Translations under genes and position numbers: made by a program
From: Nymphaea colorata
Lineage: Eukaryota; Streptophyta; Magnoliopsida; Nymphaeales; Nymphaeaceae
Assembly: GCF_008831285.2 (NCBI RefSeq)
Contig: NC_045143.1
Location: forward strand, 19,307,655-19,371,654
Length of the DNA stretch: 64,000 nucleotides
Reading direction: 5' to 3'
Notes under the pieces: generated by a model
The model's input: the letters and a program-made list of their open reading frames with translations, nothing else
Databases searched by the model: none
Told to the model about the DNA's origin: nothing
Shown: positions 3,084 through 55,560 of the stretch, in pieces
Layout of the letters: the number at the start of each line of letters is the position of its first letter
Position numbering within the stretch: position 1 is the stretch's first letter

Positions 3084-3955
3084 ACCACTTGGCCTGGCCG
3101 GCCATGGCAGATATCTTCATGAGAGTTTGGAAGAAGGGATACCCATGTGGATTTAGTTGATGGTTCATTATGGTTCACTTGAACCGTATAATCTTGGACT
3201 TTTCGAATGACTGGAACCTAATTATAGTAACAATTCTAATTCATATTGATTAATGAACTATAAACGAAATTGAATCTTGTATGACTACTCTAAGTTCCCA
3301 TGTATGAGTAGGCAAAACTGTAAAAGTTAGACACTTGCCATAAACAAGTTGATCTTCATTAACTCGCCAAAATGCAGATACCAAATGAGCACCGACTGGT
3401 CCTTACCTAAATGCTTATCTAACATCCCTGCCATCCCCAAGCTATATGGTAGGGCAAGGGTTCGTAAGAAGAATGGAAACTAAACTGCAATGGCCTACCC
3501 TGTCCATTGTAAATTGTTGAAAAAATATAAAAGAAGCAGAACAAATAAGAACAAGCAATGAAAAAATTGTTTTCATTAAATGTGAATAGTTTTTCACCAT
3601 AGAAAGCCATCACGAGCCTTGGTTTCACAAAGCATAGAAAGAACCTAAATAGGTGAAGTTCCCTCAATCTTGGCAACAAGGAAACTAAATCTGATTTTAT
3701 GGAAAGATTTTATTTTTCTTTATCATTAATATTGAATGATCTTGCTGAGATTCTTTGCTTGAATCTCTCTAAAACTACTGTCTTTCAACCTTATCGTTAA
3801 CATCTTTCCTCAAACTGGATAATGGATCTAAAAGTCCAAGTTTGCTACAGAAACTTTGTAAAAAGTGATCATGCCATTTATTTGGTAATGATTCTCGGCG
3901 AGCCCAAATTTGACAGCGATTCAAAAATCCCAAGTTTGATTCCTCAAGATTTTGT
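3084..3955. other. Intergenic, no gene recognised
   Basis: AT-rich sequence with only short unconvincing reading frames and no protein motif recognised. It separates the copia LTR from a dispersed repeat. Confidence 0.5.
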
Positions 3956-4434
3956 TCATGAATCTATCTCAATTCATAAAACAATAACATTTTGTTGTAA
4001 TTACGAAATGGTTTTTAAGGGACAAGTTTGCCCTTCATATTCAGAATGAATGAAGGAAGGTTATACTCACCCGGGACAATTCTGCCTTTGAAAGATAATT
4101 CTATTTGTGACAATTCAGACCCCAACCCAGATCCAAAGACCATGGCCTAAACCATTAATAACATGCTTCAAACCTTAAAACTGAAAATTCCAAGAGTTTG
4201 ATCTCAAACCACAACCATCTAGGGAAGTGGCAGAGCGGCTACCATTTGCTTCCGTGGCCGAAATTGCCGCAGTTCCCTTAAATCATGTATGCTATTAAGC
4301 TTGAAGGACAAATCGTAAATCAACGGCCCTGAACAATAAGCCTCGTGCCGTAGTCATTTTGTTGTGTGACTGACCCAACTTATTAAAGAATAAAAAATAA
4401 AAATCCTTGAGCATGTCGTTTTTAATGTCAGAAC
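3956..4434 (+). repeat. Dispersed repeat, copy 1 (about 480 bp)
   Basis: This stretch matches 22206-22703 in the same orientation with scattered substitutions and small indels, for example shared GGGACAAGTTTGCCC and CCTCGTGCCGTAGTC. It has no credible coding capacity. The two copies flank the uL18-MOG1 segment. They may belong to a non-autonomous element, since copy 2 begins inside an inverted-repeat structure. Confidence 0.8.
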
Positions 4435-9426: not shown

Positions 9427-12400
9427 ATGCCAGGAGATGAATGCTCTGAGCGTCTACTTTTTGGGGGTGCCATATCAAGTGCTTTTCCCATGAGGTTCCA
9501 GGTTAGCGCTGTTTCTACTACTTCAGTAGCCCTAAACTTTCTGTTGACCGATGTTAGTCTAACTTATATGCTTCATGAAAACCTGCTTGTTAAATTGCAG
9601 GATCTCAGCAGCATTCGTGAAGTTCCCGATCACCAGGTCTGAAATCTCCTTCACTGTATATAAGTCCCTGGAGTGATTATTAGGTGTTCTCATATGGATT
9701 GATCTTCAAAGGTCGCATGTTTTTACAAATGAATTTCTTCCGTCAAAATGCATCTACATGTTTGCTAATTATTAGATGCTTCCTGTGTTTGCAAATGGTT
9801 GCTTCCTTAATGTGTCTAAGCACCTCTCCGATGGTCACGGTTTAATCCATGCAATGCTTTTCTCTGTATCTTATTATGAATTACTTATATACACTCGTTC
9901 TGATCACTAGTTCACATTTTACCATTCAAGGAAGTCTTTGCTGACTCGAGCCGGGATGAAAGCCTTTTCTTTGAGCTGTTGGATCTAAAGAATGATGTCA
10001 GTGATAGTGAAAGTGCTATATGGTTTCTCCAAGATCTTGCAAATGAGCAAGATGCAAAAGGAAGTTTGGTAAGATGCAAGCTAGCGTTCTTCTCACTTCA
10101 AAAGAAACCTGTGCACTATCTTATCAAATTTTATGTGAAATGCTTATGGCTCTTATTAAGCTCAATTTTGAAGTCGCCATGTTATCTTTCTGGAACTTAT
10201 CTAGCTTTGCATGAACTTTGATACAGCGAATTGTACTAGCATATCTTTCTTGTAGCCTGCTTGCATCTTTACAGCTATCTGTCATGCGGCTCATGCCCAT
10301 CTTACTAGCCCTTCTATTTTTTTTTGGAAAATTGTTATGCTTTTTTTGGTTTCCTGCTGGTGAAATTAGTGTGCTTGATTTAGCAGGAGCTTATCTCCAC
10401 AGGCATAGGAAGAGGGAGTCATTTATGAATAAAAGGTTATTGTCATTTTTTGCTATTATGTCAATTGTATTGTTTGGTTTTGCATGTGAGGTCAACTTAA
10501 ATCCTTTTTGGTGGATGTACTCAAAGGCATGCCTAGCCTCTTGCCTAGGTGTCCTAGCACCCTAGCAGTTTGATCTCTTCCGAGCCTACAATCCCTACGT
10601 GGTCTGCTGTAGTGATTGGTCATTGGACTGTTGCTTGGTTAAGAAGATTTTGACATGACCCTTGAAATTGATGATGAGATCCGATTTATCAGATTTGATA
10701 TGACTAAGATCTAAATGCAGTCCAACTATTCACATCATTGGTAAGTCAGATTCTTGTCTTCTCTGGGTAGAAGTTTTTTTTATTTTTTTTTTTGTACATA
10801 TGACCCTTGAAATTGATTGGATAAGATCTGATTATCAGGTTTGACATGGCTAATATCTGAATGTAGTCCCACCATTTACTTTGTCAATAAGTTAGAACCA
10901 TTGTTTGTAGTTGTCAAAATCCCTACTAGTCAGTCAACTAGTCTGACTTGTTAATTGAGTTGGGTATCAACTGATCTGTCTTTCAAACCAGCAACTTATT
11001 GGTCAGACTAGTGAATTGGAGAACCTAATTGTTGATTAGCCGATGAAGTTCTGACCTATAAATGTGTATGTGCAATTGTGCATTCTTGGTATAGATATAC
11101 ATGTTTCTGTACTTATAGTCAATCAACTTGGACCAAGTCACACTGACTAGCCCTGATTAGTCTTTTTAGGAATGACCTGTGTCTGACTTACCATATGATT
11201 CCACTGGATACAATGTGATTTATCAAACCCAACCATTTACATCACCGATAAAATCTGAATGAAGTCCAACCATTTGTATTGATGATAAGTCAGGACCTTT
11301 GTCTAGTTGGAAGGGTTTTGCATATGACTCCTGAAATTGATTGACATTTGATTTGTCAGACTTGATATGACTAAGATCCAAATGTGGTCCAACCATTTAA
11401 TTTGTTGACCTGTTGTTTTATTAGAATAGTGTTACATATGGCTCCTGAAGTTGAGTAAGATATGATTTATCAGATTTGATATGACTAAGATCTGAATGTT
11501 GTCCAACCAATTTCTCCATAGCTCCAAAGATTTGGAGGAAATTTACCTTTGGGATATAGACCAATACCTTAAAGTTGTCTCTATTGAAGAAGAGGATTAG
11601 GTCACTTGTAAGTATTCATCTTTGGATGCCAAACCCTAGTGGTACGAATACAATAAGTTGGAGGAAGTTAGCAACGCTGGTAGATTGTATATTGCCTAAT
11701 TCTTCTTGGGAAGAAATGAAAAAGGAACTGAAGGGTCTCTTTGCTTCCATTGCTGCTTGATTGGCAAGAGAAAGGTTATGACAATTAAAGCAAATGGGTT
11801 TTGCTCAAGAATATATCAAGTCGTTTATCACTTCAATGCTTCAAAATGAAACCGGCATAGAGAAAGATAAGTTGGTTTGTTTGTTGACTGGGCTCCAGTC
11901 ATGGTCCCAAATTGACCCTTGGCGACGGGAAGTGAAGGACTTATTTCCGGTCTTTAGCTATGGCTGAAGGCTGTTAGACTTATATGCTTATGTTAGACTT
12001 GAAACTTCCAAAGCCTGGTTAAGAAAGACACAAAGAGAAAGGAATAACTTCATCTTGACTGGTCGAAGATGCAGTTGCAACCTTTTTATCATTGTATTTG
12101 GACCTCTTCTTGAGTTTTGGGCATTGAGGTCTAATGTGACCAGGTTCATGACAAAAATCACAAACCAAATTTGGTTCACCTTCATCTTGATTTTTTTTAT
12201 TAAAATGCAGTGGTTTACTCCTATTCATAATATAAAAACTAAATTTGAAGTAATTTTGTGCTCTACTCCTCTATGCCTCCATGAAAGAATTTTGGCATTT
12301 TTCATTTCCCAGTCATTCATTTTTTTAAAAGTATTCTTCCATGGTTTTTATCTCCATCATCAAAAGCTTTTTCAGCACCATTCTCAATGTTAACTAATTT

Positions 12401-22126: not shown

Positions 22127-22265
22127 GGGCTCTTTGGCAACCATAACAAATTATTATTGTTTGATAAATCTGTTAAAAAATTGAGATAGATTCATGGCGT
22201 GTGTTTCATGAATTGTCTCCATTCATAAAACAATAACATTTTGTTGTTATTGCCAAATGGTTTTA
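22127..22265. mobile_element. MITE-like foldback segment
   Basis: GGGGCTCTTTGGCAACCATAAC at the left is answered at the right by an inverse complement around GTTATTGCCAAATGG. The TTTGGCAA core is shared with the neighbouring MITE, from which it is separated by five bases. The right arm is also the start of the dispersed repeat at 22206. Confidence 0.5.
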
Positions 22266-22703
22266 AAGGGACAAGTTTGCCCTTCATATTCAAAATGAAT
22301 GAAGGACGATAATAATCACAGCCACTCGAGCCATGGTTGAGGGACAATTCTGCCTAATAGTTGAAAGATAATTCTATCAGTGACAATTCAGACCCCAACC
22401 CAGATCCAAAGCCCTATGGCCTAAACCATTAATAACATGCTTCAATCCTTAAAACCGTAAATTCGAAGAGTTTGATGTCAAATCACAACCATCTGGGGAA
22501 GTGGCGGAGGGGCTACTGATTACTTCCGTGGCCTAAATTGCCAGAGTTCCCTTAAATCATGTATGCTATTAAGCCTGAAGGACGAACCATAAATCAAAGG
22601 CCAATAAGCCTCGTGCCGTAGTCATTTTGTTGTGTGATTGACCCAACATATTAAAGAATAAAAAATGAAAATCATTGAGCATGTCGCTTTTATTGTGAGA
22701 ACT
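22206..22703 (+). repeat. Dispersed repeat, copy 2
   Basis: Same orientation match to 3956-4434, with a 20-base or so extra block around 22330. No coding sequence. Its 5' end overlaps the MITE-like foldback. Confidence 0.8.
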
Positions 22704-23077: not shown

Positions 23078-23642
23078 TTGGATTGGGTTTTTGAAAATAA
23101 TCTTTCATGGTTTTGATGTTCGTGAATGATGGGTTTTCGGTCGTTTTCTATGTGGGGTTATAGTGTGATTTGACTATCAAGAATGTTTCGGCAGGGATTT
23201 TATTTTTTGTCTATCTCTGTTGAATGGTGAACGTCTTCTTCTTTAATCTTTTTCCCTTTATCAGTCTTCTGTTTTGTTCTTGCCAATATTTTTTTTTTTA
23301 TATATATCAACTCTTAACTTTTCTTAGGCAAAAGAAAAGAACAAAAACAAAGGCAAACAAATTTAGTTAGCCTCATGATAAAGGTACAGGTAGAGAGGTA
23401 TTTATTTCTACCATTAACGAATTTACCTCCTATTATGAGAATTAGGGACCCATTCAGAGCATTAGCTCTTACTTTGAACCATTCAAACGTACTTAAAGCA
23501 TTTCTATGAGCAAGCCGATAGTTTGGGCGTCTTTGCACTATCGCCTATAAATTTTTTCCCCGCGCTCTCGTCTTCTTCAAAGTCTTGCAATAAAGCAACT
23601 TCCCTCCTTGCATGAGCCCTTTGAGGGAGAGAGATAACAACA

Positions 23643-24255
23643 ATGAATGTTCTATCTTCCATACTCTGCTTCTTCCTGCTACCCATATCGGTCTACCGTC
23701 AGTCTCAGCCTTCCCAAAACGTAACACTCGGCACTTCTCTTTATTCCATCAACAGCCCTTTTGCATAGACTTGTAGCTCGGGTGACTTCTCCTTTGGTTT
23801 CTCCACCATTGCCTGCAGCCTTTATGTGGGCATCTGGTTCGAGAAGATCCCAAGAAAGCTTCTGGTCTGAACAGCAAACAGAGATTATCTAGCCCCCAAC
23901 GGGTCAAGAATAGAGTTCACAAGCAATGGCAGTCTCAGACTAAAAGATCCCAACAACGTGGAGATTTTGGAAATTGCAAGAAGTGCCGATGGAGGAGTCT
24001 TGTCGGTAGCGATGCTTGACACCAGCAACTTCGTGCTTCAGAACTCCGATGGTTTTGGCTGACTTTTGACAAGCCCACAGACACCATCTTGCATGGACAG
24101 GTTCTGAAAGCAGAACAGCAGCTGCTCTCTGCGTTCTCGCCTACCAATCTGTCTGCAGGAAGGTTTTTCCTCAAGATGCAATCCGACGGAAACCTAGTGA
24201 TATCAATCGGCTGAGGATGCCAATGGAGGATAAGACTGTTGTATATTATAGATAG
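23643..24255 (+). pseudogene. G-type lectin receptor-like kinase, truncated pseudogene
   Basis: It starts at an intact ATG with a signal peptide (MNVLSSILCFFLLPISVY) and follows the 796-aa paralogue at 27790 closely through the lectin domain: SSGDFSFGFST, IWFEKIPRK, FTSNG, AMLDT. In-frame stops replace tryptophans near 23768 and 23869, a small deletion shifts the frame near 24056, and homology ends near 24255, before the EGF, membrane and kinase parts. The upstream 330 bp (23310-23642) also matches the paralogue's promoter, so the duplication included regulatory DNA. No kinase remnant was found between here and 27790. Confidence 0.9.
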
Positions 24256-27789: not shown

Positions 27790-30180
27790 ATGACGGTTCT
27801 AACTTGCATACTCTGCTTCTTCTTCCTGCTACCCATATCGGTCTACTGTCAGTCCCAACCTTCCAGGAACATAGCACTTGGCTCTGCTCTTTCTTCTCTC
27901 AACAGCCCTTCTGCCTGGATTTCTAGCTCGGGCGACTTCTCTTTTGGTTTCTCCACCGTTGCTGGCAACCTCTATGTGGCCATCTGGTTCGAGAAGATCC
28001 CGAGAAAGCCTCTGGTCTGGACAGCAAACAGAGATAGTCCAGCCCCCAATGGCTCAAGTATAGAGTTCACAAGCAATGGCAGGCTGATACTAAAGGATCC
28101 CAACAGCGTGGAGATTCTGGAAATCGCAAGGAGTGCCGATGGAGGAGTCCAGTCGGCGGCCATGCTTGACACAGGGAACTTCGTGCTTCAGAATTCCGAT
28201 GGTTCTGAGTTCAAATGGCAGAGTTTCGATAAGCCCACAGACACCATCTTGCCTGGACAGGTTCTGAAAGCAGAGCAGCAGTTGCTTTCTGCGTTCTCGC
28301 CTACCAATCTGTCTACGGGAAGGTTTTTCCTCAAGATGCAGTCCGATGGAAACCTGGTGATCAATCGGCGTAGGAAGCCAATAGAGGATGATACCGTTGC
28401 CTATTCATCACGCACAGCTGCGGGGACTGGTGGTGGGAAATTGGTATTCAATGACACAGGCAGAATCTACATAATGCAGCCCAATAACAGTATGTACAAT
28501 CTCACACCTGATTCTGCAATTCCGTCGCCGGCGGATGCCTTCTACCATAGAGCGACTCTAGACTATGATGGAGTTTTCCGGCAATATATTTTTCCAAAGA
28601 GCAGCAGCAGCACTTGGTCGCAGTCCTGGAGCAGGGTATGGAGCACAACCGACGATCCATGCAACGTTCCCAGCCTTTGTGGAGTCAACGGGTACTGTGC
28701 TTCCAGAGGTGATCAAAAATTCGATTGTCTGTGCCCCACCAACTACTCTTACATCGATTCCAACTACCAATTCATGGGTTGCAAGCAGGATTTCCCGGCG
28801 CCGGATTGCCGGAGGTCGTCGGACGATTATCGATTGGCGACATTGGAAGGGGTAAACTGGCCTACTGGAGATTATGAAATGATTGAATCTGTAGATGAAG
28901 GACAATGCAGACAAGCATGCCTTTCGGATTGTCTATGTGCTGTTGCCATCTACGGGGCGCAGCTTTGCTGGAAGAAGAAAATGCCCTTGCTCAGAGGAAA
29001 GTTGTCCCCAAGTGACGGCTCCAAAGCCCTGATCAAAGTGCCCAAAGATAACGTTTCATTCCTTTTCCCTCCTATAGTAGATGGCATAGACAGGAGGGAC
29101 GAAGGCAGAGAAAAGCCATTACCTTTATCTATCGTTGGATGGGTATTTGTGGCCGCTTCAGTAATTCTCAATCTTCTGCTTGCTGCTGGTTTTGCCATTT
29201 TTTGGCTGCATCAGCGAAGACCACAAAAGTTGGAATCGAATTCTGGGGCGCCGGAAATGAACTTAAGGAGCTTTAGTTATAAGGAATTGCAGGACGCTAC
29301 TGGTTTTTTCAAGGAGAAGCTTGGGAGCGGATCCTTCGGGAGTGTTTACAAGGGGACTCTAAACTCTGCGGTAGGGAAATTAATTGCTGTAAAGCGGCTG
29401 GATAAGCTGATGGAAGATGGGGACAAAGAATTCAGAACAGAAGTGAGTGTGATAGGAAGAACCCATCACAAGCACCTTGTCCAGCTACTTGGCTTCTGTG
29501 ATGAAGGCCTAAACAGATTAGTGGTCTATGAATACATGGAGCAAGGATCTCTATCGAGCACCCTGTATGAAAGCACCAAATTGAATTGGAAGCAGAGAAT
29601 CCTGATTGCATCCGGCATTGCCAGAGGCCTTTTGTATCTCCACGAGGAATGCGCCACCCAAATCATACACTGCGACATTAAGCCTGGAAACGTCCTTCTT
29701 GATGGCAACTTCATGCCGAAGATCTCGGATTTCGGATTAGCTAAGTTATTGAGACATGATCAAACAAAGACTCTTACTGACAACATAAGAGGAACGAGAG
29801 GCTATGTGGCCCCTGAATGGTTCAGGAAGATGGCCATCACAGTAAAAGCCGATGTTTACAGCTATGGAGTGATGCTGCTGGAGATCATATGCTGCAGGAA
29901 AAGTGTAGAACTGAACAAAAGGGAGGAAGAATCGGCCATCCTGGTAGATTGGGCCTACGACTGCTTCGTCGAACGACAATTGTACAAGTTGGTGGAGCAT
30001 GATCAAGATGCAAGCAATGATATGGAAAATGTGCAGAAGATGGTGATGGTGGCGCTCTGGTGCATTCAAGAAGAGCCATCTCTTAGACCCACAATGAAGA
30101 AGGTGACGCAGATGCTGGAAGGTGTGGTTAAGGTCCCAGTTCCACCCAACCCATCTCCTTTCATAAGTTCAATGGGCTGA
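27790..30180 (+). CDS. G-type lectin S-receptor-like serine/threonine kinase (LECRK/RLK1-like)
   Basis: A 796-aa intron-free receptor kinase of the plasma membrane. Signal peptide at 1-20; bulb-lectin domain about 25-150 (WTANRD at 77-82, MLDTGNFVL at 125-133); EGF-like Cys cluster 291-331; PAN-like region about 340-416 with C373, C377, C381, C383, C393; membrane helix about 446-473; kinase about 508-778. Kinase landmarks: G-x-G-x-x-G at 512-517, K535, HCDIKPGN at 627-634 with catalytic D629, DFG at 647-649, APE at 674-676, all present. Cys precedes the catalytic Asp, so it is a non-RD kinase, common in pattern-recognition receptors. Length and single exon fit the family. The start ATG follows a GA-rich leader and precedes a good signal peptide. 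Ligand unknown; defence role is inferred from relatives. Confidence 0.95.
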   Translation: MTVLTCILCFFFLLPISVYCQSQPSRNIALGSALSSLNSPSAWISSSGDFSFGFSTVAGNLYVAIWFEKIPRKPLVWTANRDSPAPNGSSIEFTSNGRLILKDPNSVEILEIARSADGGVQSAAMLDTGNFVLQNSDGSEFKWQSFDKPTDTILPGQVLKAEQQLLSAFSPTNLSTGRFFLKMQSDGNLVINRRRKPIEDDTVAYSSRTAAGTGGGKLVFNDTGRIYIMQPNNSMYNLTPDSAIPSPADAFYHRATLDYDGVFRQYIFPKSSSSTWSQSWSRVWSTTDDPCNVPSLCGVNGYCASRGDQKFDCLCPTNYSYIDSNYQFMGCKQDFPAPDCRRSSDDYRLATLEGVNWPTGDYEMIESVDEGQCRQACLSDCLCAVAIYGAQLCWKKKMPLLRGKLSPSDGSKALIKVPKDNVSFLFPPIVDGIDRRDEGREKPLPLSIVGWVFVAASVILNLLLAAGFAIFWLHQRRPQKLESNSGAPEMNLRSFSYKELQDATGFFKEKLGSGSFGSVYKGTLNSAVGKLIAVKRLDKLMEDGDKEFRTEVSVIGRTHHKHLVQLLGFCDEGLNRLVVYEYMEQGSLSSTLYESTKLNWKQRILIASGIARGLLYLHEECATQIIHCDIKPGNVLLDGNFMPKISDFGLAKLLRHDQTKTLTDNIRGTRGYVAPEWFRKMAITVKADVYSYGVMLLEIICCRKSVELNKREEESAILVDWAYDCFVERQLYKLVEHDQDASNDMENVQKMVMVALWCIQEEPSLRPTMKKVTQMLEGVVKVPVPPNPSPFISSMG

Positions 30181-37968: not shown

Positions 37969-39228
37969 ATGCACTCGATGGATCTGTTTGCTGCACTATT
38001 GACCTGCCTCTGTTTGCTGATACTATCCTCAGCTAGCGCTTATGGAAGCATACCTCTGGGTTCATCACTCTCATCCAAAAATACTGGAGTCGCCTGGACT
38101 TCGCCGTCCGGCGACTTTGCATTCGGTTTCTACCCTGTCCCCGGCAATCTCTTCGTGGTCGGCATCTGGTTCGACAGGATCCCAGGGAAGACTCTGGTTT
38201 GGACGGCCAACCGGGACAAGCCGGCGGCTAGAGGATCCACGGTGCAGCTCACGGCCGATGGCACACTGGTATTGAAAGATGGCCGTGGTGCCATTGTCAT
38301 GACAATTGCGTCCAGTCCCAGCGGCGGCGTTGCCTCCGCTGCGATGCTAGACTCCGGCAACTTTGTGCTCCAAGGCTCAGCCGGATCTGCTGATCTCAAA
38401 TGGCAGAGCTTCGACCACCCCACGGATACCATCCTGCCCGGGCAGGTCCTCAACCCCGAGTCCGAGCTCCGTGCTGCTTCATCAGACAGCGATCTCTCCA
38501 CCGGAAAGTTCTTCCTCAAGATGCAGAGCGACGGCAATCTCGTGCTCAATCGAGACGGCAACCCGATCGACCAATACAACATTGCTTACGCGTCCAACAC
38601 AGCCGGTACTCCGGGAAAATTGGTCTTTGATGGAACAGGCAGCATCTACATCTTGCGCTCGGACAACACCAAATACGTGCTGACGCCCTCCGGAAGCGTT
38701 CCCATTCCGGCGAGCAGCTCCTACCAAAGAGCAACCCTCGGCTACGATGGCGTTTTCCGGCAATACACCTTCCCAAAGACGAGCAGCAGCAGCTCTAGCT
38801 CGCAGACTTGGACCAGAATATGGGCTACCACAGAAGACCCGTGCACCGTCCCCGGCATCTGCGGGGTGAACGGGTACTGCGTCCTCGGAGCCGATCAGAA
38901 ACCCCGCTGCCTGTGCCCCAACAAGTACAGCTACCTAGACCCGAGCAACATGTTCATGGGGTGCAAGAATGATTTCCCGGTGCAGGACTGCAGGGGAGGT
39001 CAGCAGTACGTGCTCGAGTCGATCGCGAACGTGGACTGGCCGTTCGGAGACTATGAGATGATCAACAACATGGACGAGGAGAGATGCAGGGCGGCGTGCA
39101 TGTCCGATTGCCTCTGCACGGTGGCCATTTACAGGGTGCAGACGTGCTGGAAGAAGAAGGTCCCTCTGTTCAGGGGCCGAATGAATGTGGATATACAGTC
39201 TGTTGCTCTTATCAAGGTGCCAAAATAA
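37969..39228 (+). CDS. Secreted G-type lectin/EGF/PAN-like protein lacking membrane and kinase domains
   Basis: A 419-aa intron-free frame, clearly paralogous to residues 1-419 of the receptor kinase at 27790. Signal peptide about 1-25; bulb-lectin domain about 28-150 (VWTANRD, AMLDSGNFVLQ, WQSFDHPTDTILPGQ); EGF-like cluster (DPC...GICGVNGYC...CLCP); PAN-like region (CRAACMSDCLC...CWKKK). It ends ALIKVPK then TAA, exactly where the paralogue continues toward its membrane helix. No transmembrane segment, GPI-type tail or kinase follows, and no kinase remnant is visible downstream. Coding sequence is clearly GC-richer than the paralogue and the surrounding DNA. Predicted secreted to the apoplast; it could act as a soluble lectin or decoy, which is inference. 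It might also be a truncated relic, but the frame is intact. M1 or M4 could be the start. Confidence 0.9.
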   Translation: MHSMDLFAALLTCLCLLILSSASAYGSIPLGSSLSSKNTGVAWTSPSGDFAFGFYPVPGNLFVVGIWFDRIPGKTLVWTANRDKPAARGSTVQLTADGTLVLKDGRGAIVMTIASSPSGGVASAAMLDSGNFVLQGSAGSADLKWQSFDHPTDTILPGQVLNPESELRAASSDSDLSTGKFFLKMQSDGNLVLNRDGNPIDQYNIAYASNTAGTPGKLVFDGTGSIYILRSDNTKYVLTPSGSVPIPASSSYQRATLGYDGVFRQYTFPKTSSSSSSSQTWTRIWATTEDPCTVPGICGVNGYCVLGADQKPRCLCPNKYSYLDPSNMFMGCKNDFPVQDCRGGQQYVLESIANVDWPFGDYEMINNMDEERCRAACMSDCLCTVAIYRVQTCWKKKVPLFRGRMNVDIQSVALIKVPK

Positions 39229-41384
39229 GAGCTGACGCATCGGAAAACGATTGGGTGGGATCACTAGTGTTGAATAAATTAACCACAAGACGAGGAGAAG
39301 CCCGTCTATGTAGTAGCTTTGCTTGGTAATAACGCTGAATTAATATACTTGCCTTCCAAGTGGGCTTAATTTGGGTTTTAGTCGTTTTGCTTTTGACGAA
39401 ACGGGTTGTGAAAAAAATCTTTTTCTTTCCTCACCCGCTTGTCCAAGAATGGCTGAATCTAACTGGTAATATGTGATCTGCCATGACTCCTCCGATCCGA
39501 TTCAATGATGGGTTACATAGATATACTACTCGACTCGAGCAGTGGAGTTTGGGATGCAAATGGATCCAATTTTACATTAAATATCTGACCGGAATGGTTT
39601 CAAAAAAGTTAGACGGATAGAAAAAAAAATAGTTTGGGATGCAAATGGATCCAATTTAGACCGGATATTTGATCCCAACAACGAAGGGTGGAGCAAGAGG
39701 TCAAATTAAAGTTTTTAAATTTTGATTAGGTCGAAATATTATTTTTTCAAATTTTTTTATATAAAACAAGCAAAATTTTCTAAAATTACATGTAAATTTT
39801 AAAAACAAAATATGAAGTGGAGCCAGGGTCCATGCGCCTCTCTGCCCTTACCAACAACCCTTGTGGGGAAGAATACAACACCAAGTTGATTGTGCACTAT
39901 CTCCTTACTAGGCAGATGTAGATCTGGACCTTGGAAGTAAGGGAGATGGATTTAACTCTTTTCTGGGTGGTGGGTTGTAATCTTCTAGCTTACCCAGAAC
40001 TTTCATTCGTTGATCGTGATCATGACTGGAATTGTTAAAAAAGTTGGACATATTGAAAATTTTAACATCTGAATTATAGATTGCATGGAATTCAGATTTA
40101 AGAAATGATACCAATTACATTGGGACTCAGATTCAAATATCTTATTGAATGATTAAGTTTTAGTTTTAAATAAATGTCTTATATCCAACATATGGGCATT
40201 TTGAAAGTCGTTTCCAGAAACATATCTTAACTCTTACAAATTTAAGAATCGGATTGAGATCTCATTTGGAATGTAAGTACAGATTTGGATATGATATAAA
40301 TTTGTACCGGAATCTAAATTGGATTCAAATATGTAAATATGCATCCATAAACAGTGCGTACAACATCCAATTTATTTAAATCTGAACTTGAATCCAAATA
40401 TGCAGACATCCAATAAATCGGATTGAGCATTCCAATCCGATCTGTAGATATGCATCCTTCATTAAGTGATGCTTTCTTACATCATGCATGTCAATATTCT
40501 AAAAATCGGTTTAAAAATAGCCAGTCAAGTGAAAATTGAGCAACGCAGTTGAATCGGTTGTTATCAAATTAAGAGATGATATGTAAATAAATAAATTAAA
40601 CTTAGTTTAAAATAACAAAGATTTCAAGGAACGCAATCAATAAATTAAAACTGATACATACGCAATATATTCTTGAATTAGTCACTGATTTAAATCAATT
40701 TGCCACGAATCACGGTTTCCATTCAACAATGACGAACCAAACGTGATTGAGTCGCAACCGTGAGGTGAGAGTCGTGCAACTTCGTGTGCTTTAGTCGAGG
40801 AATAAAATCATCAATCTGCCGCGAATCGACGTAACAATGATGAAAGTGATCGAGTGGCGAGAGAGTGTCAGTTCTTGTGCTCTAGTGTGGGAGAGCCGTA
40901 TGTATGCGCACTCAAACTCGGCCTTTCGTTTAGTGGGCGCCATGTGCCTACCATTGCTTTAACTTATCGGGACCTGCTTCTGTACGTTCATGCAACAATC
41001 GTGCCATATTTTTGTTTCCACCTTCTCTTCCAGATCGACTTTCTTATTTCCAGCTTTTGATTCCTCTGACCTTCCATCGGTTTGCAGGTATGGCACTTTC
41101 ACCTTTGCTTCCAAAACGCAAGGCATCGAATATTACTTCTTCTCTTACCACGAGTTGCAAGTAATTGGCCGACAGGCTCACGTGCTTCAACCTCTACTTG
41201 AATCCACCACCTCATTAGGACTTCCAAGAAATGCTCTTAGTAAGCCTTCGGATGGCCACTCTACCATATAACAAAGGTCTTTGAACTCGCTTTGAAAAAC
41301 CAGCATGGTCTCTCTCTCTCTTGAAGATTGTGAAGCCCCACATTGTGACTAACAAGTCTTGTAATTTCAAGCCGTTGCACTCAA
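39229..41384. other. Intergenic, repeats only
   Basis: Contains a short duplication (TTTGGGATGCAAATGGATCC at about 39548 and 39632), a repeat copy at 39683-39848 and AT-rich sequence. The frames at 40854-41271 show no recognised family. Confidence 0.4.
39683..39848 (-). repeat. Dispersed repeat pair, minus-oriented copy
   Basis: On the minus strand it reads GGCTCCAC, then TTTTATATAAAAAAATTTG, ACTTTAATTTGACC and GCTCCACCCTT, following the order of 35896-36070. The pair thus forms inverted copies on either side of the kinase-less lectin gene. Confidence 0.55.
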
Positions 41385-41546
41385 GGTTGTTTGGTCGGGT
41401 CTAACACTCTTTCAATGTTTCATGAATCTATTTTAAAGATTGGATCAGGCAGAATGCTAAAGATTAACTTATTATGAATCTGTCTCAATCTTTAAAACAG
41501 ATTGATTATTCAGAAACTCACATAATGTTTTTACCACCAAACAACC
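41385..41546. mobile_element. Foldback MITE, 162 bp
   Basis: It begins GGTTGTTTGGT and ends ACCAAACAACC, perfect 11-bp terminal inverted repeats (the right end has one extra CC-type spacing inside). A second inner inverted pair, AATCTATTTTAAAGATTG and CAATCTTTAAAACAGATT, shows it can fold over most of its length. No coding capacity. Confidence 0.75.
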
Positions 41547-42135
41547 AAAGTTTGCTTGAAATTGGCAAGACTCTATGGAGTATGCTCTCTGTTTTGCTTT
41601 AGATGCCAACAGTACCAGGTCATTATATATGGCTTCATTTTCAAAATGAAGGACCACCACCATTACTCGTAGATCTTGGACCACTCCTTCTCACTGGCAA
41701 TAGTATATGCCTTACAGCACCATGTGCACTCATCCATCCATCGACTTTTGGTAATTCTACCTGCTATCCGCCATGACGAAAGGCTCCAATGCCATCAAGA
41801 GCTGGTCCTCTGTTTTTTGGCTGCACCTTGAAAGATTTCCTCAACCCTTGACAGACTAGAAATCTAGCTGTGATGTGGGATTTCCTACAAACAATCGGCC
41901 ATGATCTGGAAGGCTGATCAAGTGGCTCGATGGACGAGCATTCCACCCAGGTCTTCCCTTTGCCTTTCTACCTGATGGTCCATGCATGGGAAGATTAATT
42001 TCCAAAGTTATGCACAAGAGTGTTTTATGATCACTCACTGGAGTCTACGGTTTAGGGAACCTTGCCTTCTTGACAGTGAGGTGGTATGATGAATACTAAT
42101 CCTGGTGAAACGGAAAGAGGATAGAGTGTTGAGGA

Positions 42136-42437
42136 TGGTAATGGTTGCATCATTATGGAAAGCATCTCTAGCAAATCAGCTGGCAATTATGATCATTACC
42201 ATGATCTAATTGGAGAACAGTTAAAGATAATCAAGGAATTATTGTGTTGTTAATATGGACAATAAATGCATTCTACCGGTCCTTAAAATAAGGAGTTGTC
42301 CTAATTGCGTAAAGGATTATATATAAATGATATTGCACACCACTGATTCCAAGGTCAATGGTGGCCTTCCATGCATCCATGGAAAAGTTTTCAGCCACCT
42401 TATACCATTTCTTATCGTTATTTTATACCTTTCTTCA
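42136..42437 (+). repeat. Left LTR of TRIM
   Basis: 302 bp; contains ATATATAAATG near 42321 as a possible TATA box and matches 42688-42989 throughout, e.g. CATCATTATGGAAAGCAT, then TTATTGTGTTGTTAAT and CCACTGATTCCAAGGTC. Confidence 0.8.
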
Positions 42438-42687
42438 TGGTATCAAAGCAATGCTTGCAAAAGAAGACTAACGCCTCAATGAAATTAAGCCCCTTGACAA
42501 CCAAAAAAGATTGCCAACTTCTTCATCAAAGCAAGAAGCCGATTCAAGTTTATTAAACAAGAAGCACGACCTCGACAGCAAACTAAGACTCAGCAAATCG
42601 CCATCCAATTTGAAGGGGAACGAAAGACGATAATGCATTGAGAATGAAAGTAATAATAGTTGACGGAGACAATCATGGGAGCACATA

Positions 42688-42989
42688 TGACAATGATGTC
42701 ATCATTATGGAAAGCATGCCTAGCAAATTCGGTGGCAATTATGACCATTACTGTGATTTAATTACAGAACGGTCTATGCTAATCAAGCAATTATTGTGTT
42801 GTTAATGTGGATAATAAATATATTTCAACTACTTATTAAAACAAGGAGCTATCTTAGCTGTGTGAAGGCTTATGTATGAATGAGATTACGTACCACTGAT
42901 TCCAAGGTCGTTGGTGGCCTTTCATGGGCTAGAAAAAAAGTTTCAGCAATGTTAAAACTATTTCTTATCTTTGTTTCATGTCTTCTTCA
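42688..42989 (+). repeat. Right LTR of TRIM
   Basis: 302 bp, same length as the left copy, starting TGACAATGATG and ending CTTCTTCA. A weak purine stretch (ATGGGAG) precedes it. Confidence 0.8.
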
Positions 42990-45460
42990 AACAGTAGAGG
43001 TAGAGGTAGTAGGTTTAGGACCCTTTTTACCATGGGATCGGCTTCACTGCTTTATTATGTTGCCAATAAGCTTGAGCACAAACCTAGCTCAACCAACCTA
43101 ATTTCTTACAATTTTTCTTGGCCACCACAAAAGAGTTTCAAGGAATAATTGCTTCAAGAAGGACTCACCAAATTTCAACCATTTTGCATTGGCAAATTCC
43201 CAAATATGACCCTTGGAAGATTGTAGGTTGTTGCTGCAAATGGCACAAATTTTGAGATTTGTCCTTCTTCAACTTCATTGGGTAGGAAATAGGTAGTGAC
43301 GGCTGACCATGACCAGACTTCCAAGAATCCAAATCTTGGAGACCCCATCCTTGGGCTCGCCTTCCTAGCAGTAGCATCAAATGTTACCAACTAGGGCAGG
43401 TAAGGGTGTCGAGTGTCTTGTGCCCTCATCTCTCCTTCACTCATACAAGAAAACCCCCAGTAACCATTAGATACCTTCCAAAAAGCCCATTGGTTTGTGT
43501 AGCATAAGACAAGTATAACATGAAGTTTTAGCCCCTTTACATAGGCACGTAAATGATCGACCTTACAGTTACCATTTTCCTACAAATGGCAACATCCAAT
43601 TTCCTCATATCAACCCCCATTCCTTTAGAAGTCATTTGATAACTGTTCTTCTAAACCAACAAAAAGTCCTGCACCCTTGTCATATCAGTCCTATCATTAA
43701 TGTTTTCAATCCACTATTTGATCATTTTAATTCATTTTGTCCAGTGATTTGTCTAGTCATTGTTTCCTTTGCAGATCATCTCGTCCACCATGTTCATTTT
43801 ATTCAACATTTGAATTTTATTACACTTGTGATCAGTCAGCCACATTTGCCGGCTCGTAACTTCTGGCTGAGAACTCCAACGGGGTTGAGCTTGGGTTAGT
43901 TGGAAAGAAAATCAAAAGATCTATCCAATGAGTATAAGAAATCCTGGGTTGGAGACCGTTTACTCCTTCAAACTTGGCTCCAAAAAGAAACATAAATACT
44001 ACCAGTCCTGACTGCGCAAACTACTCAAACTGCTAACTTTCAGAGTTTTAACTGAAAGGAGTTCCTATTGCAGCGATCTATAGCTTGTCAAAAAGGCAAT
44101 GGGACGAGCTTTTTAATGGACTCTAGAGGGCGAAGATCTGAGCTCATTTGGTGGGTTAGACATAGCTAAGAACAAGGCTTCTGAATTAGCTCGATAGACC
44201 TTTCCTCGGGCAGTTGCAGGGCATATTTTGAGCTGGCTTTTGGAGATCGATCTGAGCAGGATCTTGTCGCCCCCTAGACGAATGAAAGAAGGGCTTTTGA
44301 ATAGCAGTCTGAGGTGAGTTGACAGCATCAAGATGGGGAGGAAAGGGGGCAAGTTGGCTAGGTGAATCAATGTAACAAATAGTTGGTGTATGGCTCACAT
44401 TTGGGCTTGGAGACTTAGGAAACTGATGATCGGTGTGGGTTACAATACTCTGATAGGTTCGGGTTTTGGAAGGAAGATAGGAAGTACGATGAATTAGAAG
44501 GAGGTAGCTGGGATTACGAGAAAACATTCGGGATCGCCGGATTCCAGCAAAAGGAGTAAATTCATCCCATTGGGGAAAATGCATAAATCGAATGGTTCTT
44601 CTCTAATTGATGGTTTGGATCAGTAGATTAGGGGCTGGGGAATCAGATTCTGAAGTTTGTTGGGAAATCCAAGAGGAATCCAATGGCTTTTAGCCGAACA
44701 ATCATAAGTGAAGGTTATCGATAGAGAGCGAAATGAGAAAACATGGCCTACCTGGAAATTGACATGGTGAATCAAGCAACATTGGCTCTGGTCGCCGAAA
44801 AATGACCCCTTGTCTATCGGTTGCCACCGATGTGGTTGCTGCTCGCCACAATGCTTCATCGGAAAGTTGAATCATATGACTTGCGAGGTGTGAGGTGTGC
44901 GTGTATGTATGTGTGTGTGTGTGTGAGAGAGAGAGAGTCGCAGGTACGACATTGCACGAGAGAGAGAGAGAGAAAGAGTCGCAGGTACGACATTGCACGA
45001 GAGAGAGAGGGCCAGCGCTTGCGTTCTGTGTTGTTCCTTGGTTTAGCACGGAACAGTGTGGAACGGGTTGGGATGTTATACCTCTCATTCTGCATCGAGT
45101 CTGTTCTGCTTATCCTGTGTCCAGCTTTTCCATTATCTACGCGAAAAACAGAGCAGGCCGTGTTGTTCCAGGATGGTCCAGTGAATTCAGACGGCCGTTG
45201 CTCCTGACAAGTGCCTCTCATCCACCGCTCATTTTGTTTGTCTAGACTAGGCCACATTGGCTGCAATCAGCTTTGTTCTTCTTAGTGTGGGCCTTTGCTT
45301 TCAACTATACTCGTTTACCTGTTCTGTAATTGTTCTCTAAAATGTCTCACTCCACCCCAACCTTTCACTTGGACCATATGCATCACAAATTTATTTCATT
45401 TTTCATTATCCCTTCTTCTAACTATTGAACATATTTTGGACACCAAGGCTGATGAGGTTG
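42990..45460. other. Intergenic, no gene recognised
   Basis: Several frames of 80-136 aa on both strands (e.g. 44186-44584 minus, Pro/Ser-rich) without a recognised family. It may hold non-conserved retrotransposon sequence. Confidence 0.4.
44905..45012. repeat. (TG)n(AG)n microsatellite with 41-bp tandem duplication
   Basis: GTCGCAGGTACGACATTGCA followed by CGAGAGAG occurs at 44937 and 44978, spaced 41 bp, between TG and GA runs. Confidence 0.85.
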
Positions 45461-46410
45461 GACACGCCGAGCTGTAAATGACACCGTGGTGAGACACGGT
45501 GCAGCGTTGGGTATCGGACATAGGTCCAAATTGTACAGGCAGATTGGACCCATGAGTTTTGTAAACCTCAATCCGAGCTTTAGTAACTCGGGTTGGGTTG
45601 CGGATCGTTTCGGGGGATCCGGGATGTAACCCAGATCCACTTTTGTTTGAGTCGACTGCTGAACCGAGTTCATTTAGGGACTTGGGCAGGTCTTGGCACG
45701 ACCTGGTCCGGCACACCATCAAATTGAGTTGTGGCCAGGCAACTCGCACACGGCATATGCGAGTACCCAACCGGCTGAGCCAGCCTCTCCTTCCCTGCGC
45801 GTTAAAGGTAGGGAGATCGATTTCTTTTATGCTTTTTGATATCGACTGTAAATCCCTAACATGAAAGGAATTCTGACGACCACACCTGTCGGCGGTTTTG
45901 ATCAAAATAGCCACCATGGGCTGATTCTCTTTCACCTTCAAAAGCTCTGCAAATCTGATGAATGGACGGCTGAAAGCGTGGTTCTCTTTCAGAAAACGAC
46001 GGACGAATAGCGGCTGACTTATCGACGACATGGTTCTTCTCCAATGGAACCCTGTGGCTACGCACCCTACGACACCAATGATGGATACATGTTACTTCGA
46101 CAGATCTTCTTCATCCCCGCACCTGCTCCCCGACAACAACCTGCAAGGTTACTATTCCCTTGGTTTACTGCCTCTTCTCCACATGAATCCCTCCATCTCT
46201 CGTTCCGCATGCCATACCATTTTTTCTCGCCGCATCTCCTTCAACCCATGGCCATTCTTCATCATCTCTGCCCTCTACGATCGCATCAAGAGACTGATTA
46301 CCCCTACGCTTGGAAGATGAACTCTTGGCAGACTCAGAACCTAATCCATTCTGCTCCTGCTGAGCGTTATCCTTGGGCAGTGGCATCATCTCGGTGGTGG
46401 ACAGGTCGCA
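45461..46410 (+). repeat. Left LTR, 5'-truncated
   Basis: 950 bp matching 52392-53370 along its length, from GACACGCCGAGCTG to GGTCGCA. The first roughly 850 bp of the right LTR have no counterpart upstream, so the left end was deleted or interrupted. Confidence 0.85.
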
Positions 46411-46415
46411 TCATT

Positions 46416-49562: not shown

Positions 49563-49798
49563 GTGTCGTCCGTTTGAGGGAATGCCAACTGAAATGGGAG
49601 TTCAGCGTTTTAGGATTAATAAAAAAATCAGACCACATATCATGGCCTGATTGTCGAGCACATGATAACTAAGGAGGGGCGTGTCGTCCGTTTGAGGGAA
49701 TGCCAACTGAAATGGGAGTCCAACGTTTTAGGATTAAGAAAAAAATCAGACCACATATCATGGCCTGATTGTCGAGCACATGATAACTAAGGAGGGGC
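49563..49798 (+). repeat. Perfect-length 118-bp tandem duplication
   Basis: 49563-49680 and 49681-49798 are the same 118-bp unit, starting GTGTCGTCCGTTTGAGGG and ending CTAAGGAGGGGC, with only a few substitutions. The near identity shows it is much younger than the LTR divergence. Confidence 0.95.
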
Positions 49799-51537: not shown

Positions 51538-53370
51538 TGATATGGACCTACCCCCGCTCGGCCATGATGGCCTACGGGAGGCCGTATCCACGCTGCTTGG
51601 GCCCATGATGTTGGCAGCTTCTCGACATTTCTCTGGCCTTTTAACGCGTTAGGGAGGCAAAAACCCCACCTGCCCACACTCGAAGGCCTCATCGCATGCA
51701 AGGGAGGCTATCCACACAATAATTATACATTGGCCGCAAGGTCGACAGTCAAGGGAGGCTAGCAGCCTATGCGAGGAACCAGGGCAGAAACCAAGTGAGG
51801 CTATTAGTGTGGGATTAACACGATGGACCCTTCAAGGGTGCGCAACAGTTATGGGGTGATGCAGCCAAGGGGCCATTAGCAACATAAGCCTTCCTGCATT
51901 CATGGGAGACTGTCCGAGAGACGACGAAGCACTAGGGATCAGGCTGCCTCAAGGTGGTTGTCGAGAGGAGCAGTCACTCTACCTAGGGGGGTTAACTCCA
52001 GCCCCTCAGTCAAGCGGGCCAAGACCTCCAGTACAGATGGTTGGGTGTGGTTGAGGCCATTTAGCCTTTGCACGCAGCAAGATCACCCTTGGACGAGGAG
52101 GGACTCGACCCAAGGTGGAACTCGACCCAAGGTGGAACTCGGCTAGGTCTGGCCAGGTGCAACAGGGTTTGAGCAAGTTCGAGCGAGACACGTCCATGTG
52201 TGAGGCGAGGCAGGACACACCCAACAAGGAAGAGCGCGGAGGCAGGATCCACTTGGGACACGAAAGGGAGCTCCAGAGCGGGACATGACCTCAGGTGGCG
52301 TTGGACATACCGAGGTGCCACGACCTTGAAGGAGCGACAAGTGCAGGAGATGATGGAGCAATGAGGCGGGACATGCACGTTCGTGATGCGTGACACGCCG
52401 AGCTGCAAATGAAACTGTGGCGGGACATGGTGCGGAGTTGGGTACCAGACACAGGCCCAGATTAGACCCGCGAGCTTTGTAAACCCCGATCCAAGCTTTA
52501 GTGACTTGAGTTGGGTTGCGGATTGTTTCGAGGGATCCAGGATGGGACCCGGATCCACTTTTGTTTGAGTTGACCATTGAACCGGGTTCATTCAGGGACT
52601 CAAGCGGGTCTTTTGGCGCGACCTTGTTCGACACACCATTGAACCGAGTTGTGGCCAGGCAGCTCGCGTGCGGCATATGTGAGTGCCCACCAGCTGAGCC
52701 AGCCTCTCCTTCCCTACGCGTTAAAGGTAGGGAGATCGATTTCTTTTGTGTTTTTTTATCTTGACTGTAAATCCCTAATCTGAAACGAATTCCGACGACC
52801 ACACCTATTGGTGGTTTTGATCAAAATAGTCACCATGGACTAACTCTCTTCTACCTTCAAAAGCTCTGCAAATCCGACGAATGGACAGCTGAAAGTGTGG
52901 TTCTCTTTCAGCAGAAAACGATGGATGAACAACGACAGACTTCTCCGCGACGTGGTTCTTCTCCGCTGGAATCGTGCAGCTACGCACCACGACACTGAGG
53001 TTAGTCACTCTGTGATTCTGAGTGATAGTCGGTGACGGATACACATCGCTCCGATAGATCTTCTTCATCCATGCATTTGCTACCCGACAACAACATGCAA
53101 GTTTATTGTTCCATTAGTTTGCTGTCTCTTCTTCGCCTGATTCCCTCCATCTCCGTTCTGCATGCCTCACCATCTTCCCTTGCCGCTTCTCCTTCAACCC
53201 ACGACCATTCTTCAACATCTCTGCCCTCTGCGATCGCATCAAGAGACTGAGTACCCCTACGCCTGGAAGATGAACTCTCGACAGACTCAGAACTTAATCC
53301 ATTCCACCCCTACTGAGCGTTATCCTTGGGCAGTGGCATCACCTCGGCAGCCCTCGGTGGGCAGGTCGCA
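51538..53370 (+). repeat. Right LTR (1.83 kb)
   Basis: It starts TGATATGGACC after the polypurine tract and ends GCAGGTCGCA. The distal 979 bp match the left LTR; the proximal 854 bp are unique in this window. GC-rich with short repeats (AAGGTGGAACTCG twice at about 52111-52141). Confidence 0.75.
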
Positions 53371-53374
53371 TGAC

Positions 53375-55560
53375 AAGGCTTGGAAATTTATTTTCAAAAT
53401 TGAGTTTGATGGAGTGCAAGGTGCTATCTAAGAGGCAGGGTGGAGCTTCTTTGAGAAGCTTGGGGAAGTGGAAGGAGATGAGAGCCTTTTTACCAATGTT
53501 GCTGAGGGTCCAATAGTGACAATGGAAGAGAAGGCAACCCTTTCTTCTCTTGTTTCAGATGAGGAAATTAGAGGAGTCATCTTCAGCTCCGATGGCGATA
53601 GTGCTCTCAGTGTCGAGGGGGTTCCCGACTTCCTTCTATCAATAGTACTGGGATATTATGGGTCACAATGTCACTATCACCCCAAGGATTTCTCTTGTAG
53701 TGGCAAACTTGTTTAAAAGATCAACCAAATTGTCATCGCCCTCATTCCAAAAGAGGAAGGGGTAAAAAATTTTAATGAGTTTTGGCCCATCTTCCTTTGT
53801 AATAGCCTCTTTAAATTTATTAAAAAAATTATGGTGGGTCATATGAAAGGCGGATTGTGGAGGATTATATCTTCCAATCAAGCTGCTTTCTTGCCAGACA
53901 AATCTATTTCTAACAACGTCATCTATGCCCATGAGATTGTTCATAATATGCATGCCACATCTAAGGGAGTTGTTTGTCTAAAGATTGACTTTTCTAAGGC
54001 TTAGGACATGGTTAACTGGACTTTTTTGAGCAATTCCTTGCTTTGGATATGGCTAGATTGAAATCCTTACTTGTGTGTCCACCGCCTCAGCTTCGGTCAT
54101 GATTAATGGCAGAATTGGTGCTTTTATTTTGCGGCAGGGTGACACTCATTCACCCAATCTTTTCCTCATTGTTATGGAGATTGCCTTGAGGGGTTGGAAC
54201 CACATGGTTCACAGAGGACTGTTATTCCTCCATGGTTTTCTAGAGGTGGCAGGAGTCCAGGCATGCTCTCTTTTGCCGACAACATGCTGCTTTTTAGTTT
54301 TGCTAATACAATACTTCTTCCATCCAAGCTATTCCCAACTTCTTGGATAACTTATTATCTCATTCAAGTTTCAAAGTTAACCACAACAAATCCATCCTTA
54401 TCTCATTTCAAGTCAAAGCTGACATCTTGAGCAGTATTAGAGGGGTGTCGAATGGACCTTTCTACTCTCCTAGTAAAATATCTTGGTCTGCCACTGTTTT
54501 CGAGGAATCTTACCTTGGTGGTTATGACGACCTGGTTATCAAGGTTCAGAAATGACTCACTGGTTGGAAGGGTCGCCTTCTATCTTACTCTAGCAGATTA
54601 TGCCCAATAAACTATGTTTTACTTTGTCTTATCAGGTGTTGTGCATCCATTTTCAAGCTCTTGTGGACAAAAGAATTTATGGCAGGCTTCTTGTGGAGAA
54701 TAACCGATGACGCAAAAGGTGGCACCTGACTGCTTGAAGAACTATCTGTCGGCCTCATGATGAAGGAGGTTTGGGGATTTTGAGTCTGCTTGCAATGAAT
54801 TATGCTCAGGAGCATTCTATGCTCTTTATCTTTGTACGAGAAAAATAATTGGGTGAGTTTTCTCCATGAAAAATACCTTTGTAACCACTCTCTTTGGTCT
54901 AAGAAGAGGGTAGTCCATGCTTCATGGTTTACGCAAGAGCTGAAGGCTAGCTAGGGTTCCATCCAAGAGAACATGAGCTGAAATGTAGTTGAACAGCTCA
55001 TTGATTTTTTGGTCCTCTCGCTGGGCCAGATGCTGCCTTTAGGACCTCTTGGATGCTAAGGAGTTTTCTTACTTCAATCCCTATTTCAAGATGTTTATTC
55101 ATAGGATGGTTTCAATGCAAGGGAACATCCAATCAATTTTCTGTAATTTTATAGATAGGGTCCATGTGAATCTCTCTATGCTCAACAACAATATAGATCA
55201 GCTTCTCTACATAAATCAAGCTGCCCTCCCTCAAGAAGTAGCAGATCTTTGGGATGACATCAGAGAAAAGCACCTTGTTGGAAGATGGCACAGCTGGATT
55301 TGGCATAAGGACTATCTCCCTTGTACGCAATGATTCTACTATATTGCTAGTTTTGAGAGACATCAAACTCAAGATCAGTTGAAGGCCAAAAGCCTATATG
55401 TTGTGAATAGATGCTATCTTTGCGACAAACAGGAGGAAGATGCTTGCCATCTTCTCTTCACATGTCATGTCACTAAAAAGGTTTGGAAATTCATTGTAAA
55501 TAAATTCGGCAAGATGTAGGTTTCCCACCAGAATTTTATTTTGAAACTTCTATGGTGGTT
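53375..55560 (+). pseudogene. LINE (L1-type) reverse transcriptase and zinc-binding domain, degenerate
   Basis: Broken frames follow the plant LINE order: VIALIPKEEGVKNFNEFWPI (about 53730-53790), SNQAAFLPDKSISNNVIYAHEIVHNM (53875-53950), KIDFSKA near 53990, LFLIVMEIALRG near 54160, SFADNMLLFSF where the catalytic F-A-D-D should be (54270), and a zinc-binding tail with CYLCDKQEEDACHLLFTCH (55412-55468). FADN replaces FADD and many stops and frame changes occur, so it is dead. It starts directly after the gypsy-derived LTR, so its 5' half was lost or displaced by that insertion. Confidence 0.85.

Follow-up and report, generated by a model that had tools for sequence, protein, structure and literature searches.

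An S-domain protein gene without kinase or membrane helix beside a G-type lectin receptor kinase gene in Nymphaea colorata

The short gene and its receptor neighbour

The gene at 37969-39228 of the window (the whole stretch of 64,000 nucleotides analysed here) probably codes for a secreted protein of the S-domain receptor-like type (SRLP, G-LecP) that appears, from its sequence, to be an ancient paralogue of the ectodomain found in a receptor kinase encoded 7.8 kb away, a reading to which we assign a probability of about 0.6. The class has been described before, and the short gene is an ordinary representative of it. Its coding sequence, recognized from the open reading frame and its translation, lies on the forward strand, as do all of its features given below, and runs from ATG to TAA through 419 codons plus the stop codon; it is intronless as read and open throughout, in agreement with the long, clean frame reported by the initial annotation, and the disabled frame of a pseudogene was not found.

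Hydropathy analysis in 19-residue windows revealed a peak near residues 1-25, with the 12 highest windows all starting at residues 1-13, which marks a signal-peptide-like N-terminus (residues 1-24, 37969-38040), and no second hydrophobic helix was detected beyond this stretch. A putative cleavage site after A-S-A was read by eye using the -3/-1 rule for signal-peptide cleavage sites. Pfam searches of the 419-residue protein identified a B_lectin domain at residues 75-162 (38191-38454; PF01453, E 5.3e-23, 82 bits against a cut-off of 32.4), an S_locus_glycop domain at residues 249-317 (38713-38919; PF00954, 26 bits against a cut-off of 24) and a marginal PAN_2 match at residues 349-385 (PF08276, 21.1 bits, exactly the cut-off of 21.1), the last belonging to a PAN domain that we place at 39013-39225 considering that similarity to the receptor reaches residue 419. 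The same searches reported no kinase domain and no EGF family, and a fourth match, to Calici_coat, fell below the cut-off and was taken as chance. A cluster of cysteines at residues 292-332, overlapping the S_locus_glycop domain, together with the alignment to the ectodomains of Brassica SRK8 and SRK9, points to an EGF-like part. Among the regions initially proposed, the lectin and PAN domains stand on Pfam and the signal-peptide-like start on hydropathy, while the EGF-like region stands on the cysteines and the alignment.

The neighbouring gene at 27790-30180 (forward strand) encodes a full-length paralogue of 796 residues, a G-type lectin S-domain receptor kinase that is likewise intronless as read, with a membrane helix at approximately residues 446-473 (by hydropathy) and a kinase domain at residues 508-774. 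Its catalytic loop reads HCDIKP, with HCD in place of HRD, a non-RD form that is common in non-RD kinases of the immune type. Pfam, hydropathy and the presence of this receptor thus bear out the description of a kinase-less, anchor-less S-domain protein beside a full receptor kinase.

Alignment of the short protein with the receptor ectodomain gave 242 identical positions in 420 columns (58%; BLASTP E 6e-164), and in the PDB sequence set five distinct sequences matched it at E values up to 0.01, the best being the ectodomains of Brassica SRK8 (phmmer E 8.4e-22) and SRK9 (1.9e-19); the E values to the receptor and to SRK8 indicate that the ectodomain likeness is not due to chance, and the short protein is far closer to its own neighbour than to either Brassica sequence. 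All 12 mature cysteines are kept in register between the two paralogues, a count in agreement with the six disulfide bonds described in the ectodomain of an SRK (PMC7530648). Both proteins also carry ALIKVPK at the same point, which forms the C-terminus of the short protein and aligns to receptor residue 419, and from there the receptor continues through a linker of about 26 residues to its membrane helix. The initial annotation had the short protein ending exactly where its paralogue turns toward the helix; the shared end of the ectodomain agrees with this, and the end-point is right to within the linker.

When the window was compared with itself by blastn (E up to 1e-5), the two genes matched each other only at 27913-28997 and 38092-39176. 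The short gene is much richer in GC at third positions (0.71) than the receptor (0.56). A shared promoter was considered and rejected, with no blastn match between the upstream DNA of the two genes; a lenient and uninformative scoring of the 1 kb upstream of each gave 326, where 60 shuffles averaged 322.5 and reached at most 362. GA repeats precede the start codon in both genes. Relatives of the short protein were also sought in the viral_contigs and genome_contigs sets, where 4 and 10 pattern matches, respectively, yielded no confirmed relative, as expected for plant genes, and an AlphaFold model built from two sequences reached a mean pLDDT of only 34.7 and was unusable.

Constraint on the reading frame and history of the cluster

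The comparison of the short gene with the receptor indicates that the reading frame was constrained for most of its history, a statement in which the period after the truncation cannot be separated from the time before it. At the first, second and third codon positions, identity over 409 aligned codons was 0.70, 0.78 and 0.41, respectively, and a scripted pairwise maximum likelihood codon model over 390 codons, used since the counting method was saturated on synonymous sites, gave an omega of 0.12 (dN 0.295, dS 2.46, a saturated dS that makes the value only rough), with omega = 1 rejected (2dlnL 190.5). Neutral dN/dS had been set by the initial annotation against its own proposal, and the pairwise value obtained does not refute it. 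If the short-gene branch is given all of the amino acid change and half of the synonymous change, simple arithmetic raises its omega to about 0.24.

The history of the cluster includes a third copy at 23643-24246 (forward strand), a decayed 5' fragment of a receptor-type gene found by tblastn, blastn and translation, which on its sequence is a real pseudogene: stop codons interrupt its frame at 23766 and 23868, and the reading breaks near 24053. The region 23303-24247 is 79% identical to the receptor gene region over 971 columns, including approximately 340 bases upstream of the start. Synonymous divergence from the receptor is 0.29 for this copy and 2.46 for the short gene, so that the split of the short gene appears to predate the duplication of the receptor type. 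The third copy also served as a control for the codon model, and the comparison of the receptor with it (185 codons, dS 0.29) gave an omega of 0.33, with omega = 1 rejected (2dlnL 17.2). A pair with one dead partner is thus not near 1, so that a low pairwise omega is by itself no proof of a living gene; as an average taken across time and across the two branches, pairwise omega is blind to selection after the loss of the kinase.

These properties bear on the possibility that the short gene is a recent truncation, in which one clean deletion or rearrangement removed the kinase and the helix and the frame has stayed open for lack of time. Pairwise omega does not distinguish before from after such an event, the value of 0.33 shows that a pair with a dead member can also fall below 1, and the pseudogene at 23643-24246 demonstrates that this cluster makes truncated, decaying copies. 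Besides, in simulations of neutral drift (substitutions only, 500 runs per level), stop-free frames were not rare at 0.05 substitutions per site (59/500), although they fell to 14/500 at 0.1 and 0/500 at 0.2; the short gene and the receptor differ at 37% of aligned sites. Against a recent truncation stand the 419 codons free of stops or frameshifts and the need for a breakpoint at the very end of the ectodomain with a stop codon directly there. The simulations and the codon-model results together suggest that any unconstrained period of the short gene was short, and we regard this explanation as unlikely.

The DNA downstream of the short gene

Searches for what a truncated receptor would have left behind found no remnant of a kinase or membrane helix in the 24.8 kb that follow the short gene (39229-64000, either strand). 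Strict local alignment of the post-ectodomain DNA of the receptor was equalled or exceeded by 98 of 100 shuffles for 39229-39528, by 99 of 100 for 39229-41228, by 54 of 100 for 39229-45228 and by 7 of 20 for 39229-64000. At the protein level, phmmer on the 2108 six-frame ORFs of the window recovered the part with helix and kinase from no ORF other than that of the receptor (E 2.2 for the second-best match), and tblastn with that part (E up to 10) gave chance-level matches elsewhere in the window. Lookalike residues noticed by eye after the stop codon were discarded, as six-frame protein alignment over 6 kb scored 32-41, below the control, in which the highest of 40 shuffles reached 42 to 55 depending on the frame. 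A truncation by a simple stop mutation, if recent, would leave a recognizable kinase, and none was seen up to the end of the window; a freshly broken receptor, if that is what the gene is, must therefore have lost its kinase cleanly.

The same stretch is relevant to the reading of the short gene as exon 1 of a larger receptor gene, in which splicing at 39216 would join it to a helix and kinase exon further downstream and the stop codon of the frame would be used only in unspliced transcripts. Some SRK genes do use such a stop codon in unspliced transcripts. A pattern search found the splice-donor-like string [CA]AG-GT[AG] once in the frame, as AAGGTGCCAA at 39214-39223, and this sits at the end of the ectodomain; moreover, exon 1 of SRK encodes the whole S-domain (PMC7971086). 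However, the spliced kinase exon that the initial annotation had weighed against its proposal was not found, as neither strand of 39229-64000 showed a stretch resembling a kinase, and the closest relative in the window (27790-30180) is intronless as read, while one survey counts 77 of 91 rice SD2-type genes as free of introns (PMC7971086; its sub-counts of 77 and 18 do not sum to 91). We consider a first exon, joined to a kinase exon beyond the end of the window, highly improbable. A putative poly(A) signal, AATAAA at 39273-39278 (forward strand, pattern search), starts 45 bases after the stop codon.

The surrounding DNA contains several features of other kinds, and the genes and retroelements of the window suggest plant nuclear DNA. 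A Copia-type gag fragment lies at 555-953 on the reverse strand (Pfam Retrotran_gag_2, E 7.3e-22), and a possible reverse transcriptase fragment at 53717-54004 on the forward strand (RVT_1, E 7.1e-6, 26.3 bits, below the cut-off of 29.6). Two copies of a repeat at 45461-46411 and 52392-53371 are 79% identical over 997 columns, with no Pfam match in one ORF taken from each (45396-46031 and 52143-52802), and a dispersed repeat of about 500 bases occurs at 3955-4434 and 22205-22702 (85% identical). A direct tandem duplication of 118 bases with 97% identity was found at 49563-49798, and 9904-10221 on the forward strand may hold an exon of a gene for a Mog1-like Ran-interacting protein (E 5.2e-9). 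ARAGORN with the bacterial code predicted no tRNA in the window, and Rfam gave no match there at gathering scores.

Possible function and comparison with known systems

If the short gene encodes a secreted receptor-like protein, its hydrophobic N-terminus would direct the product into the secretory pathway and it would end in the apoplast, where it would most likely meet the receptor's sort of ligand and/or pair with receptor ectodomains, and may thereby tune signalling by competing or pairing in soluble form. Such a mechanism linked to the receptor is offered tentatively, at odds well below even. A decoy or co-receptor role does have precedents (PMC7530648, PMC4765790). In rice, the ectodomains of OsLSK1 pair with themselves and with those of five homologues, a kinase-less form still anchored by its membrane helix acts dominantly, and over-expression of the full-length protein and RNAi produce no visible phenotype (PMC4765790). 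Among the matches listed in a search of the literature on decoys and alternative transcripts, covering titles and the beginnings of abstracts, no natural kinase-less S-domain decoy appeared.

The main functional rival to a receptor-linked role leaves the identity of the protein unchanged and gives it a function of its own, that of a secreted lectin acting in defence or at the cell wall independently of the receptor, and we judge it rather unlikely. The bulb-lectin mannose motif is QxDxNxVxY, and a pattern search found a near match to it, QSDGNLVLN, at residues 186-194 (38524-38550), a nearly complete QxDxNxVx string that would suit a lectin. The divergence between the paralogues, which differ at 40% of aligned residues, also agrees with an independent role, and strawberry FaMBL1, a G-type lectin protein which combines a signal peptide with GNA and PAN domains, is reported to be involved in defence (PMC9786840). 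Nevertheless, the motif ends in N and not in Y in both paralogues, the receptor version being QSDGNLVIN, so that sugar binding by the short protein appears uncertain.

The absence of N-glycosylation sequons is a possibly unusual trait of the short protein. No N-x-S/T sequon was found along its 419 residues. The receptor holds six in the aligned stretch of equal length (27790-29046), and a further one, NVS, directly follows in the linker; at all six receptor positions the short protein has a residue other than asparagine. Shuffles preserving the composition of the short protein had a mean of 3.1 sequons, with none in 3% of 5000 shuffles, and asparagines were kept at 0/6 positions within sequons compared with 8/15 outside them (P 0.046), both tests being after-the-fact and statistically weak. 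A more elaborate proposal, in which the short protein would have evolved in nature as a soluble decoy or partner free of glycans, forming with the receptor a built-in receptor/antagonist module maintained by selection, seems to us improbable.

The architecture itself, which the initial annotation had presented as noteworthy, is that of the SRLP/G-LecP class, compared here by its described architecture in three studies: the same B_lectin-SLG-PAN order without a kinase (PMC3616866, PMC9786840, PMC7971086). S-domain receptor-like proteins were defined and called ubiquitous in land plants in a survey that counts 19 typical B_lectin-SLG-PAN sequences without kinase across five land-plant genomes (PMC3616866). 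Further counts appear in other works, with neither kinase nor membrane helix in 23 of the 133 G-type lectin genes of woodland strawberry (PMC9786840), 12 kinase-less receptor-like proteins in a 144-member family in rice (PMC7971086) and 73 of 93 tomato sequences with G-type lectin domains also having a kinase (PMC5889549), while lectin proteins and receptor-like proteins are given as 5-10% of expanded plant lectin families (PMC5485988). Within this class, the short protein may stand apart in having no N-glycosylation sequon; compared with the G-type lectin receptor kinase at 27790-30180, it has the same ectodomain without helix and kinase.

A parallel in arrangement is Brassica SLG, an ectodomain-only secreted protein encoded near a related full-length receptor kinase and composed of two lectin domains, an EGF-like part and PAN (PMC7530648, PMC3616866). 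SLG is, however, a secreted glycoprotein, whereas the short protein has no N-glycosylation sequon, and the short gene, analysed in one haplotype, lies, unlike SLG, outside any demonstrated S locus. Truncated OsLSK1 of rice offers a second likeness, being a kinase-less S-domain ectodomain in a system where the ectodomains of clustered paralogues pair (PMC4765790), but it is man-made and keeps the membrane helix, whereas the short gene is natural and has none. As it stands, the short gene adds one case to a class already described; if its product were a soluble regulator, the gene and its neighbour would resemble the SLG/SRK pair without lying at a demonstrated self-incompatibility locus, and would offer a parallel from nature to the dominant-negative ectodomain approach tried in rice.
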